Source: Brevundimonas mediterranea (GTDB lineage Bacteria > Pseudomonadota > Alphaproteobacteria > Caulobacterales > Caulobacteraceae). Taken from it: a DNA stretch of 64,000 bases. Below the pieces are notes generated by a model. That model saw only the letters and a program-made list of their open reading frames with translations. It did not search any database and was not told where the DNA came from. The DNA is taken from NCBI RefSeq assembly GCF_011064825.1, contig NZ_CP048751.1:682001-746000 (forward strand), given 5' to 3'. Shown here piece after piece: positions 57,393-61,670 of the stretch. Both the position numbers and the translations under genes were made by a program. The first letter of the stretch is position 1, and each line of letters begins with the position of its first letter.

Positions 57393-58169
57393 CTACTCCT
57401 GGATGTCGGGGGTGCGCCAGGCCAGGTGCTGGCCCCCGTCGACGGCGATCATCTGGCCCGTGACCATCCGCGCGTCAATGAGCCACAGCACGGCCTCGGC
57501 CACCGCCTGCGGGCTGCCGGGCGTCTGCAACAGGGTGCCGCGCGCCTCGGCGGCGAATTCCTCGGGGGTCTGGTGGATCGACGGCAGGGTCGGCCCCGGC
57601 CCCACGGCATTGACCCGGATGCCCGGCGCCAGGGCCTGGGCCAGGGTCCGGGTCGCCCACCACAGGCCGTTGCGCGACAGGCTGTAGGAGAAGAAGCGCG
57701 GATCCGGCTTCAGCACCTTCTGATCCAGCAGATTGATGATCACGCCTTCCACGGCCTGGGCCGCGAAGGCCTCGGCCAGCACCAGGGGCGCCCGCAGATT
57801 GGTCTCGATATGCCGGTCCCAGCTGTCGCGCGTCAGGCCGCCGACCCGGTCGTCCTCGAACACCGAGGCGTTGTTGACCAGCACCGTCAAAGGCCCCAGC
57901 GCCTCGACCGCCGCCGGAACCAGCGCCCGCACCTTGGCCTCGTCCGTCAGGTCCGCCTGCAACAGACACGCGCGCCGCCCGAGGCCCGCGATCTCGTCGG
58001 CCAGGGTCCGGGCGTCCTCGCCCGACGCATGATGATGAATCGCCACGTCGAAGCCCGCCCGCGCCAGGGTCAGGCAGATCTCCCGCCCGATCCGCCGCGC
58101 CGCGCCCGTGACCAGGGCGACGCCCCGCGCCGGGGCGACGCCGGCGGGCGCCGCCGGGACTTCAGTCAA
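57393..58169 (-). CDS. Pteridine reductase-like short-chain dehydrogenase (FolM type)
   Basis: A 258-residue SDR, likely a dihydrofolate or dihydromonapterin reductase. The cofactor loop is VALVTGAARRIGREICL (TGx3RxG, NADPH type), with LVNNASVFEDD. The catalytic site follows the PTR1 pattern Asp149-Tyr162-x3-residue166, but residue 166 is Arg (SYSLSRNGLW; codon at 57674-57672) instead of Lys. It starts with TTG at 58169, overlapping the small upstream ORF. It is coupled to folB, which supports a folate role. Confidence 0.87.
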   Translation of the reverse strand: MTEVPAAPAGVAPARGVALVTGAARRIGREICLTLARAGFDVAIHHHASGEDARTLADEIAGLGRRACLLQADLTDEAKVRALVPAAVEALGPLTVLVNNASVFEDDRVGGLTRDSWDRHIETNLRAPLVLAEAFAAQAVEGVIINLLDQKVLKPDPRFFSYSLSRNGLWWATRTLAQALAPGIRVNAVGPGPTLPSIHQTPEEFAAEARGTLLQTPGSPQAVAEAVLWLIDARMVTGQMIAVDGGQHLAWRTPDIQE

Positions 58170-58242
58170 CCCGACCGAACTCGAAGACGTTGAACGCCGC
58201 GATGACGGCGACGAAGCCGAAGATGATGCCGAGAGCCAGCAT
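58162..58242 (-). CDS. 26-residue membrane microprotein
   Basis: An ATG at 58242 with AGGAGCATCC just upstream reads MLALGIIFGFVAVIAAFNVF and then EFGRVD. It is one hydrophobic helix with a short polar tail. Its stop overlaps the TTG start of the pteridine reductase gene by eight bases. The strong ribosome site and the clean helix favour a real gene, possibly serving to couple translation into folM. No homologue is known to me. Confidence 0.5.
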   Translation of the reverse strand: MLALGIIFGFVAVIAAFNVFEFGRVD

Positions 58243-58462
58243 GGGATGCTCCTGTGTCTGATCTTCGATTAGAGCGGTCCGGGGCGCGGTTCAAGCGGGG
58301 GCGGGTTTGGGGGGCGATGAATAGCTCGGCGACGTCAGTAATTGACGGCTGCCATAGGCCAACAGTCTACAAGGCTAGTTTGATTAAGGTTTCCTAGACA
58401 CCGACAGGTTGTTGCCCCTATCTGGAAACTGAAAAAGCGGACATTGATGCCTTGGGGGGCAA

Positions 58463-60922
58463 ATGACGATCGATATCAGCCGTCTCGCGAGCGACCTGAA
58501 GCCCGAGCGCACCGTTTTGCTTTTCGGCTCCGGCTCTTCAATTCCATCCCTCGTGCCCGGCGTGAAGGAGTTGCAGGAGGCCTTGCAGTCAAAATTCGGC
58601 GTTGCAAGCACCTATAGCCTAGCTGAACAAACGGAAATTATCGAAATTCAGAAGAATGACCGTCGCCCCCTTATCGAGTTTCTCAGAAGCCTTATAGAAA
58701 ACAAGAGACCGACGGGAGGGATTTTAAACTTACCATTATTCACATGGAAGAGCATATTCACGACCAATTATGACAAGCTAATCGAAATAAGCTACAATCG
58801 TCGGTCGCGTCCCTATGTGGCGTACTCGTCGAATTTTGATTTCGGGCGAGAACGCCCGGCAGATTCTACGCAGATTTTTAAGCTGCACGGCACCATCGAC
58901 AAGGATGTCGTCGATGGGGATCGGTCACGAATAATCCTTACGTCGAGCGACTACGACCTCACAGAAGAATACCGTGAAAACCTATTCGACCGGTTTAAGT
59001 CTGACGTAGGCGAAGGCGATCTACTCGTGATCGGCCACTCTCTGGCTGATCCTGACATCAAGGAAGTGGTGGAGAGAGCCGCGCGTATCCGGCAAAAGGC
59101 CGGTGGCCAAGGAGCAATCACGGTTCTTTCTTATTCGCCCGACGCCAATCTCGCTTCTATCTTGGAACGCAAGGGAATTACGGTCTGCTTCGGTGGGCTG
59201 GACGATCTCTTCGCCGCTCTCTCGAAACGAGTTGCACCGGACCTTTTGGTCGCGTCAACATCATCGTCGGACCCGCTGGACATTGTCTCTTCGCTTCGCC
59301 CTGCGACCGTCGATGTGCGGCATTCGCTGGAGATTGGGCGCCCAAACGTCGCTGCCATGTTTAATGGTTGGTCTGCGTCCTATCCCGACGTGAAAGCGGG
59401 TCTCACCTTTGAACGGGTTGTCGCGAGCGACGCGGCCAAGGCGCTCGCCAACAGGAAGCATCAGATAGTCACGATTCTTGGGCCGAGCGGCGTTGGGAAG
59501 ACTACCGCAGCCAGGCAGGCGCTGACAATCTTGTCCGGCCAAGGGGTATTCTGCTGGGAACATAAAACGGACCAGCAGCTATCGGCAAAAGATTGGCGAA
59601 AAGTCGCAGGGATACTTGAAAAGGAGGGCAAGCAGGGTTGCCTCCTGATTGATGATGCCCATTCCGAACTGACCGAGATTAACGATCTGATCGATTATCT
59701 TGTTACGGATAAGGTGACGGTTCTGTCGCTCATTCTGACGTCGTCGAAGAACCAGTGGTACCCTCGAGTGAAGACACCAGGATTTCACAATCGATCACGC
59801 GAATACCAGTTTAATCGAATCAACGAAATTGAGGTTGATCGACTCCTCGACCTGCTAGACCGGGTTCCTGAAATCAGCCGTCTCGTCGGTGATGCGTTCA
59901 CTGGGTTCACGAGAAGCGAGAGAAAGCAGAGACTTATAAGTCGCTGCGATGCCGACATGTTCGTGTGTCTGAAGAACATATTCTCTTCCGACCAGTTCGA
60001 CAGCATCGTGCTCAAGGAATACGCAGATCTCTCGCGGGAAGCCCAAGATGTGTACCGAGCCGTAGCGGCGATGGAGAGTGCTGGCGTTCGTGTCCATCGG
60101 CAGCTGGTTATCCGGCTATTGGGCATTCCGTCTATGTCGATTGCTCCAACGCTCGCCGGACTGCAGGACATCGTACATGAGTACACCGTCAACCAAAGAG
60201 AAGGCGTGTACGGTTGGCGCGGAAGACATCGCGTGATCATGAATATCATTGCCGAGCACAAATATTATAGCGTCGACAAGAGGTACGACCTATTCGAGCG
60301 TGTGATCGATAATCTTTCGCCCAGCTACGACATTGAGGTTCGAACGATTAACGAACTCTGCAATGTCGACACCGGTCTGTCCACAATACCGGATAAGCGC
60401 CGCCAGAATGCATTGCTGCGCAAGATGATGTCGGTTGCGCCTCATGAACGCGTACCCCGTCACCGACTGATCCGCAATTTGATCTCGCTGGACGACTATG
60501 ACGCCGCTTCTACGGAAATCCGCGTATTCGACGCAGATTTCCGTCTGGACGGTCCGACGACCCGGTATTCAATTGATCTGCAGGTCGCCCGCGCGACCAA
60601 GACGGCTGGCATACTCGATGAAGATCGCATCGCGATCCTTCAAAAAGCCTGCGAAGCTGCGGCGGCAGCCGCGTCTCGGTTCAAAGACAATAAGGCCGTC
60701 ATCGGCGCATATTGCGAGGCGGCGCTACATTTGGCTCGTCTAGGAGGAGACAGGCAGTTCTTCGATGACGCTATCAGAGCCTTGCGTGCTGCAGAACTAA
60801 AGACAGGGGATCGCCACATCACTTCGATGATTTCGCGCTTCGAAAATATGATTTCTCGGTTAGACGTTGAAATTCCTGATGGCGAAGACTTGGATGATGT
60901 GGTGCCGGAGATCGTCGATTAG
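58463..60922 (+). CDS. SIR2-STAND NTPase, probable anti-phage defence protein
   Basis: An 819-residue protein. Residues 1-255 form a SIR2-like NAD-hydrolase domain: LLFGSGSSIPSLVPG (20-34), FTTNYDKLIE (99-108), FKLHGTIDKD with His142, and VIGHSLADPDIKEVV (189-203). A STAND-type NTPase follows with Walker A ILGPSGVGKTTAARQ (338-351) and Walker B GCLLIDDAHSE (392-402). About 400 C-terminal residues are helical and likely sense the trigger. This is the plan of SIR2-containing Avs/DSR defence proteins, which deplete NAD+ on phage infection. The gene has visibly lower G+C than its neighbours, indicating transfer. No partner gene is adjacent. Confidence 0.87.
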   Translation: MTIDISRLASDLKPERTVLLFGSGSSIPSLVPGVKELQEALQSKFGVASTYSLAEQTEIIEIQKNDRRPLIEFLRSLIENKRPTGGILNLPLFTWKSIFTTNYDKLIEISYNRRSRPYVAYSSNFDFGRERPADSTQIFKLHGTIDKDVVDGDRSRIILTSSDYDLTEEYRENLFDRFKSDVGEGDLLVIGHSLADPDIKEVVERAARIRQKAGGQGAITVLSYSPDANLASILERKGITVCFGGLDDLFAALSKRVAPDLLVASTSSSDPLDIVSSLRPATVDVRHSLEIGRPNVAAMFNGWSASYPDVKAGLTFERVVASDAAKALANRKHQIVTILGPSGVGKTTAARQALTILSGQGVFCWEHKTDQQLSAKDWRKVAGILEKEGKQGCLLIDDAHSELTEINDLIDYLVTDKVTVLSLILTSSKNQWYPRVKTPGFHNRSREYQFNRINEIEVDRLLDLLDRVPEISRLVGDAFTGFTRSERKQRLISRCDADMFVCLKNIFSSDQFDSIVLKEYADLSREAQDVYRAVAAMESAGVRVHRQLVIRLLGIPSMSIAPTLAGLQDIVHEYTVNQREGVYGWRGRHRVIMNIIAEHKYYSVDKRYDLFERVIDNLSPSYDIEVRTINELCNVDTGLSTIPDKRRQNALLRKMMSVAPHERVPRHRLIRNLISLDDYDAASTEIRVFDADFRLDGPTTRYSIDLQVARATKTAGILDEDRIAILQKACEAAAAAASRFKDNKAVIGAYCEAALHLARLGGDRQFFDDAIRALRAAELKTGDRHITSMISRFENMISRLDVEIPDGEDLDDVVPEIVD

Positions 60923-61199
60923 CGTGATACTTGTTTGGCTATCGGGCGAACTCGGTGATGAGGAGCATCACAATTACAGACTTGGTCCATCCACAGACCG
61001 CTGGCTGGTTCGAAGCGCATTGCTGGGCGCAGCAAAACGTTTTTGCTCCCCCAAAGGGTCAGCATTCCGACCAAGCGCCAACTTCCGCTCCATGGCGTGA
61101 CGGCACCTAGTCCACGCTGCAGCCCCCCTCCCCTTCCCTCCCGCCCCCAAAGATGATCGAACATCCCGCCACACACCACGGCCGGGGGCGGATACATCG

Positions 61200-61670
61200 A
61201 TGAACTGGCGTCAGCGCGTCGAACCCTTCACCCGCCCCGTCTTCTTCGCCTGGTCGCGGCTGTCGCGGGGCAAGACGCTGGGCGTGCGGGCCGTGGCGGT
61301 GGATGCGGACGGGCGGGTGGCGATGGTCCGGCACACCTATCTGGCGGGCTGGTGGCTGCCGGGCGGCGGGGTGGACCGGGGCGAGACCACCCATGAGGCC
61401 GTGGTGCGCGAGCTGCGCGAGGAGACCGGGCTGATCGCGCGGGCGGCGCCGCGCCTGGTCTCGCTGCATGCCAACGAGCGGTTCTTTCCCGGCGATCATG
61501 TCGCCGTCTTCGTCATCGACGCCTTCGACCGGGGCGAACGCACCAGCCACGGCGAGATCGCCGAGGTCGGCTGGTTCGCGCCCGACGCCCTGCCCGCCGA
61601 CGTCAACCGGGGCTGTCGCGCGCGGCTGGCCGAATGGTTCGACGGCGTACAAATCGATACAAATTGGTGA
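61200..61670 (+). CDS. NUDIX hydrolase
   Basis: A 156-residue NUDIX protein with the full Nudix box from GGVDRGETTHEAVV to RELREETGLI (about residues 58-80), which binds Mg and cleaves nucleoside diphosphate-X compounds. RAVAVDADGRVAMVRHTYLA starts the domain. The substrate is unknown. A GGGGGCGGAT stretch lies upstream of the ATG. High G+C resumes here after the SIR2 gene and a 277-base gap. Confidence 0.9.
   Translation: MNWRQRVEPFTRPVFFAWSRLSRGKTLGVRAVAVDADGRVAMVRHTYLAGWWLPGGGVDRGETTHEAVVRELREETGLIARAAPRLVSLHANERFFPGDHVAVFVIDAFDRGERTSHGEIAEVGWFAPDALPADVNRGCRARLAEWFDGVQIDTNW

Follow-up and report, generated by a model that had tools for sequence, protein, structure and literature searches.

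A single-gene SIR2-STAND protein in a variable-cargo site of Brevundimonas mediterranea: a candidate Avs5-type immune protein with a distinct putative sensor

The stretch of DNA analyzed here (the window) comprises 64,000 nucleotides of the Brevundimonas mediterranea contig NZ_CP048751.1, positions 682,001 to 746,000, and carries a gene for a SIR2-STAND protein (58463-60922, + strand, stop included). The gene is a single intact open reading frame with an ATG start and encodes 819 residues. An earlier, sequence-only reading had proposed a foreign, single-gene anti-phage defense system with SIR2 and Walker A and B motifs, and both the frame and the motifs were confirmed. The SIR2 effector domain covers residues 1-250 (58463-59212, + strand), with GSGSS at residues 22-26, TTNYD at 100-104, KLHG at 140-143 and GHSLADPDI at 191-199. 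The predicted catalytic residues are N102 (58766-58768, + strand), previously misnumbered as N103, and H142 (58886-58888, + strand), whose number was correct. A STAND P-loop NTPase follows at residues 315-440 (59405-59782, + strand), with Walker A (59480-59503, + strand) and Walker B (59642-59656, + strand) motifs read as GPSGVGKT at residues 340-347 and LLIDDAH at 394-400. Pfam matches to SIR2_2 (PF13289, 83.8 bits, cut-off 24.5), nSTAND_NTPase5 (PF25199, 46 bits, cut-off 34) and nSTAND3 (PF20720, 29.3 bits, cut-off 27.2) were far above chance.

The remainder of the protein consists of a post-NTPase helical segment (residues 441-514; 59783-60004, + strand) and a putative sensor (residues 515-800; 60005-60862, + strand), which is modeled as helices and kept within the family. 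In the AlphaFold2 model of the 819-residue protein (mean predicted local distance difference test score 84.6, predicted template-modeling score 0.78), the C-terminus is helical, as the earlier reading had it, and all-helical beyond residue 587. We read the putative sensor in this model as a winged-helix-like part followed by helical repeats; Pfam returned no significant repeat family in the C-terminus, the TPR_19 match having an E-value of 0.59. The family alignment contained 46 rows, namely the window protein and 45 proteins from the best 120 of 402 database matches, and N102, H142, K346, D397 and the HG motif were invariant in all 46. A search of its own genome with the window protein gave one match. 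A promoter scan found 1 site versus 1.8 in shuffled sequences, and a terminator scan found 4 versus 3.0.

When the whole model was compared with the PDB by Foldseek, the lowest E-value was that of EfAvs5 (PDB 9jap), and the AVAST5 filament ranked seventh. The best Foldseek E-value places the protein in an Avs5-like type with whole-chain fold resemblance to a solved Avs5, although the superposition on EfAvs5 is loose (TM-score 0.28 of the model). The protein has the features of Avs5 in the broad sense: a SIR2 domain with GxGxS, TTNxD and HG motifs, an nSTAND NTPase with Walker A and B motifs and a C-terminal helical domain, joined as in EfAvs5 in one chain of similar length. EfAvs5 was represented in sequence comparisons by L024, a protein from an E. 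coli plasmid that shares 97.4% identity with the 9jap chain over 454 residues, and by relatives of L024. Comparison of full-length profiles (hhalign) gave 99.4% probability over 477 columns and ended at residue 514, so that the post-NTPase segment is included in the homology; N-terminal halves cut at residue 514 gave 99.4% over 470 columns. The C-terminal halves gave 0.2%, versus 0.1-0.8% in five column-shuffled controls and 0.2% in a reversed control. Residues 515 onward thus have no detectable sequence relation to the sensor of EfAvs5 relatives, and a new trigger is therefore possible. The earlier statement of no obvious match between the C-terminal sensor and a described Avs type is half right, holding for the sensor sequence but not for the type of the whole chain.

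The two groups differ in other respects as well. Identity to EfAvs5 is about 20% (global identity to L024, 21%), and EfAvs5 relatives carry HING and GNGKS where the window family carries KLHG and GVGKT. In a midpoint-rooted tree of 50 sequences, with some long branches and four further rows ungrouped, a branch with 100/100 support set off 26 family members, and a different branch set off 20 EfAvs5 relatives. Identities of 18-21% between Avs5 clades are given in a published Avs5 study (PMC12931631), which describes four clades, three of them tested, with EfAvs5 in clade 3. We file the window protein as an Avs5-type SIR2-STAND protein in a separate clade, outside the EfAvs5 clade; its sensor shows no detectable sequence homology to that of EfAvs5, in a comparison that covered clade 3 of that study. 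The clade is apparently an unnamed, large branch of Avs5-like proteins, and a literature search whose scope left out most subscription papers found no description of it. In the same tree, two plasmid SIR2 proteins of 1048 and 1047 residues, from Vibrio (L011) and Psychrobacter (L012), were nearest to the family; no NCBIfam model covers either over its full length.

With respect to the AVAST5 filament protein (9nc9) and PaAvs5-1 to PaAvs5-3, the family is set apart in that the curated Avs5 models, NF041814 of NCBIfam and PDLC02170 of PADLOC, match only its SIR2 residues. NF041814 scored 17.8 bits against the window protein (cut-off 1000), and PADLOC gave separate matches to the SIR2 and NTPase parts and none over the whole protein. 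However, the EfAvs5-like control L024 also had no NCBIfam match at E<=1e-3 and no PADLOC Avs5 match at E<=0.01, so the failure of the window protein says little and the models cover part of Avs5. Since both models miss the window clade and an EfAvs5-like protein alike, surveys that use them may undercount SIR2-STAND immunity. NF041814 had no match over its cut-off in sets of 200, 48, 1, 78 and 368 genomes (the sets of 48, 1 and 78 are probably from classes other than the intended one). The 9nc9 chain, whose presence in the searched set is uncertain, was absent from PDB sequence matches at E<=10 with family and EfAvs5 profiles. L024 and a second EfAvs5-like protein from an E. coli plasmid (L025) are annotated only as SIR2 family proteins, and L025 likewise lacks NCBIfam and PADLOC Avs5 matches.

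Conservation of the putative sensor relative to the effector was compared between the two groups in subsets of 15 and 10 sequences, drawn eight times each, possibly overlapping, at mean pairwise identities of 0.52 and 0.55. Both sets were the top listed matches of their searches rather than random samples. In the window family, mean identity was 0.558 in residues 515-800 versus 0.540 in the SIR2 domain, and reached 0.613 in residues 515-600; in EfAvs5 relatives it was 0.536 in the C-terminus versus 0.639 in SIR2. A wider band (identities of 0.52 and 0.43, the EfAvs5 set being more divergent) gave the same contrast, with 0.555/0.537 and 0.429/0.520. By this measure the putative sensor and the effector of the window family are conserved to the same degree. 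For Avs5 homologs, the C-terminal domain is described as poorly conserved in PMC12931631. A search with the C-terminal 400 residues, restricted to proteins of 220-700 residues, gave 214 shorter relatives. Among the best 120 of these, 119 begin inside the family sequence, many of them perhaps cut by contig ends, and one protein (P0248) has an unrelated N-terminus and looks chimeric. Effector swapping was not seen, as no alternative effector occurred among these best 120 of 214, and these sequences suggest that the sensor remains linked to its effector.

A search of 5.8 billion proteins, with 8000 candidates scored, returned the 402 family matches at E<=1e-3. The best 120 of them comprised the window's own protein and 119 others with 48-62% identity, 95-100% query coverage and lengths of 789-838 residues, from Bradyrhizobium, Methylobacterium, Burkholderia, Pseudomonas, Shinella and other named sources; the remaining 282 need not share the clade. 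Presence of the gene is patchy. Among 61 nearby genomes only the window's own held a full-length copy, and four other matches were to SIR2 residues only. The same was true of 385 genomes of the class (at most two candidates scored per genome), where eight others were partial, the fullest of which (G293) matched residues 30-203 at 32% and 267-634 at 20%. None of 50,697 phage records matched the protein. A plasmid search gave 116 matching records. Coverage of more than 80% of the query was reached in only three of these, a Vibrio plasmid (22.6% identity, 87% coverage) and two nearly identical plasmids of Pseudomonas (47.5% identity). At the nucleotide level (blastn) the sole plasmid match was 184 bases at 67.9% in two Pseudomonas plasmids. 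Searches of viral and genome contigs, which used a few short peptide patterns and were not exhaustive, found two close relatives in each.

All five relatives with an inspected context lie in a mobile or mobile-like setting. One viral-contig copy (L022) adjoins a phage repressor and transposition genes that we take for MuA and MuB, as in a Mu-like prophage, and the other (L023) lies between replication genes and integrases, beyond which come genes for terminase, major head and portal proteins. A Profundibacterium copy (L007) shares its contig with genes for a plasmid replication initiator and a relaxase; immediately before it is a type II methyltransferase-endonuclease pair (799.8 and 348.9 bits), and downstream of it lies a Tn3 transposase. 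A Paracoccus copy (L006) lies alongside plasmid mobilization and ParA-like genes, and a copy on a conjugative Pseudomonas plasmid (L010) adjoins a tyrosine integrase. With regard to mobility, the choice of L022, L023 and L010 is biased by their sources, a collection of viruses for the first two and one of plasmids for the third; L006 and L007 alone, found in general genome contigs, are free of this bias. On L010 and a second Pseudomonas plasmid (L095), the annotation splits the family gene, next to the tyrosine integrase, into three coding pieces, and this copy may be broken.

In the window, the gene is the only one in an insert of 2.8 kb (58300-61121, no strand assigned), whose bounds were taken from the closest relative (L062). 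On its left is an SDR-family gene (57393-58169, - strand) and on its right a NUDIX-like gene (61200-61670, + strand), named from a reading of its sequence; both are conserved in the genus. We surveyed this site in 32 loci from 40 same-genus relatives; the other eight (G001, G005, G007, G023, G024, G026, G031 and G999) were left out, since each yielded no more than SDR matches of 41-43% or a fragment. Against the first 14 loci, blastn homology ended at 58252-58300 and restarted at 61122 or beyond (never in L069), and between those bounds nothing longer than 60 bases aligned in any of the 14. By tblastn, none of the 32 stretches matched the SIR2-STAND gene. Both flanks were found in 24 of the 32 loci, and a NUDIX match was lacking in eight. 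The SDR-NUDIX distance in these 24 was below 300 bp (near-empty) in 10, 0.8-3.6 kb in 12, and 523 and 572 bp in the other two.

All 12 filled sites were inspected by translation, and seven proteins from five of them were tested with PADLOC and Pfam. One site (L063) holds a Septu-like ATPase-nuclease pair (PtuA 604.6, PDC-M01A 659.9 and PDC-M01B 334.5 bits) and another (L070) a restriction-modification pair of a BamHI-type endonuclease and an N4/N6 methyltransferase. A third (L065, 4904-6649, - strand) encodes a 582-residue protein with a GHKL/HSP90-like ATPase, partial matches to type II endonuclease models (60.4 bits) and a weak C-terminal match to SduA (Shedu-like) below the Pfam cut-off, a possible single-gene defense. 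The closest relative (L062, 5496-7985, + strand) carries an 830-residue protein that neither Pfam nor PADLOC matched, and L068 a sulfotransferase. By reading only, the cargo of L066, L075, L077 and L084 looks metabolic (TonB-type receptor, arsenic genes, stress protein), and the filled sites of L064, L067 and L081 showed no clear gene. The interval 58255-61200 is therefore a variable-cargo site between the SDR and NUDIX-like genes in the genus, with clear defense genes in two of 12 filled sites and a possible one in a third, besides the window. Site-specific integration was considered and set aside, as the insert has no convincing terminal repeats and no integrase was read in it; we infer that cargo is exchanged by recombination in the conserved flanks.

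Base composition sets the gene apart, as had been noted. From 58 to 61 kb, the three 1-kb bins had 54-56% GC, versus 61-78% in the other 61 bins of the window, and the gene had a GC fraction of 0.53 and 0.60 at third codon positions, whereas six neighboring genes had 0.66-0.73 and 0.88-0.93. However, the genes of all five measured relatives (L006, L007, L010, L022 and L023) were also below their own surroundings in GC, and a low GC content is therefore in part characteristic of the family. Composition is thereby weakened as proof of recent transfer, since alone it neither dates nor sources the event; absence of the gene from all 32 syntenic loci is the stronger evidence. The mobile contexts and the variable-cargo site support the proposal that this single-gene SIR2-STAND protein moves horizontally and is probably anti-phage.

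Several other systems share parts of this architecture. ThsA of Thoeris, KomC (the closest solved SIR2 domain) and SIR2-HerA each have a SIR2 NADase domain. These are multi-gene systems, and ThsA ends in a STALD/SLOG domain and is paired with a TIR gene. The window insert holds no partner gene, no second gene having been seen in it. The ThsA model matched residues 7-206 only, and in place of an adjacent HerA, as expected of SIR2-HerA (Nezha), the neighbors are the SDR and NUDIX-like genes. SIR2-HerA is likewise treated as multi-gene in PMC11559045. DSR1 and DSR2 resemble the window protein in placing an N-terminal SIR2 NADase on a large sensor protein, with Foldseek E-values from 3.1e-10. They differ in that the Dsr1 (19.1 bits) and Dsr2 (15.2 bits) models matched SIR2 residues only, NF041819 scored 14.2 bits against a cut-off of 1400, no DSR model matched over its full length, and 306-356 of the 819 residues are covered when the window protein is aligned to full-length DSR2 chains. 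Human SAMD9, a eukaryotic protein of 11-12% identity, matched the fold over much of the chain with a TM-score of 0.46 of the model (EfAvs5, 0.28), and PaAvs5 is also called SAMD9-like in PMC12931631.

The domains, conserved catalytic residues, Avs5 fold match, mobile relatives, patchy presence and site together suggest that this is probably a single-gene abortive-infection system of the Avs5 type. In the resting protein, the helical C-terminal part would keep the STAND NTPase and the SIR2 domain inactive. A phage-derived or phage-induced ligand would bind the C-terminal part, and the nucleotide-bound NTPase would then drive assembly, probably into a filament as in EfAvs5, in which the SIR2 domains would hydrolyze NAD+ through N102 and H142 so that growth and phage replication stop. 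The gene travels on prophages and plasmids and here occupies a chromosomal variable-cargo site. Ligand binding, assembly and NAD+ hydrolysis are expected by analogy with PaAvs5-1 and EfAvs5, the latter reportedly forming a filament (Nat Commun 2025). Avs5 is described in PMC12700824 as forming filaments from dimeric blocks, filament formation being apparently a prerequisite for activity. For PaAvs5-1, PMC12931631 reports NAD+ loss after infection and a requirement for N110, Walker A and the C-terminal helices.

The protein could instead be a plain member of published Avs5, for example of the fourth clade of PMC12931631, and respond to a like trigger, for instance the jumbo-phage protein JADA. 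The shared three-part architecture and fold match fit this, as does the report in that study that three divergent Avs5 clades sense JADA. We nevertheless consider it unlikely: the C-terminal sequence is unrelated to that of EfAvs5 relatives, the clade is separate at 100/100 support, and HG is found in all 46 aligned members, whereas published Avs5 has NG or HG at about 1:1 (PMC12931631); the sequence comparison behind this covered EfAvs5 relatives. That relatives adjoin a Mu-like prophage repressor and the integrases of another prophage and of a plasmid would suit a guard of the carrying element, acting in superinfection exclusion or plasmid competition and triggered by rival mobile elements rather than lytic phages. 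The window copy, however, is a chromosomal single-gene insert without recognized phage or plasmid genes, and such a role is improbable here.

About equally improbable is a sensor of internal state, such as a nucleotide, NAD+ or a stress signal, with a host-derived ligand rather than a phage protein. A C-terminal half as conserved as the effector, unlike that of EfAvs5 relatives, speaks for it, but the gene spans many genera and is patchy, and the Avs proteins whose triggers are known respond to phage proteins (PMC12931631). A degraded or inactive foreign gene, functionless in its host, would agree with the foreign composition and with the plasmid copy annotated elsewhere as three pieces; with an intact frame and all catalytic residues kept in the window, this is very improbable.

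Beyond the Avs5-type immune protein proposed for the window, we entertain, somewhat more readily doubted than accepted, the idea of a large undescribed SIR2-STAND sensor subfamily that combines an Avs5 chassis with its own sensor, conserved like the effector, on proteobacterial chromosomes, prophages and plasmids. If so, phages could not easily alter its trigger, which would be either a phage feature that does not vary or a host state that infection disturbs; the better-known Avs sensors, by contrast, are variable. A conserved sensor on a known effector chassis offers a testable case for a fixed trigger common to phages.

The SDR-NUDIX site also provides a cheap route to more compact defense genes in the genus. 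At its left edge, a short frame in the window (58162-58242, - strand) encodes a 26-residue hydrophobic peptide and overlaps the start of the SDR gene; its DNA is partly alike in three relatives.
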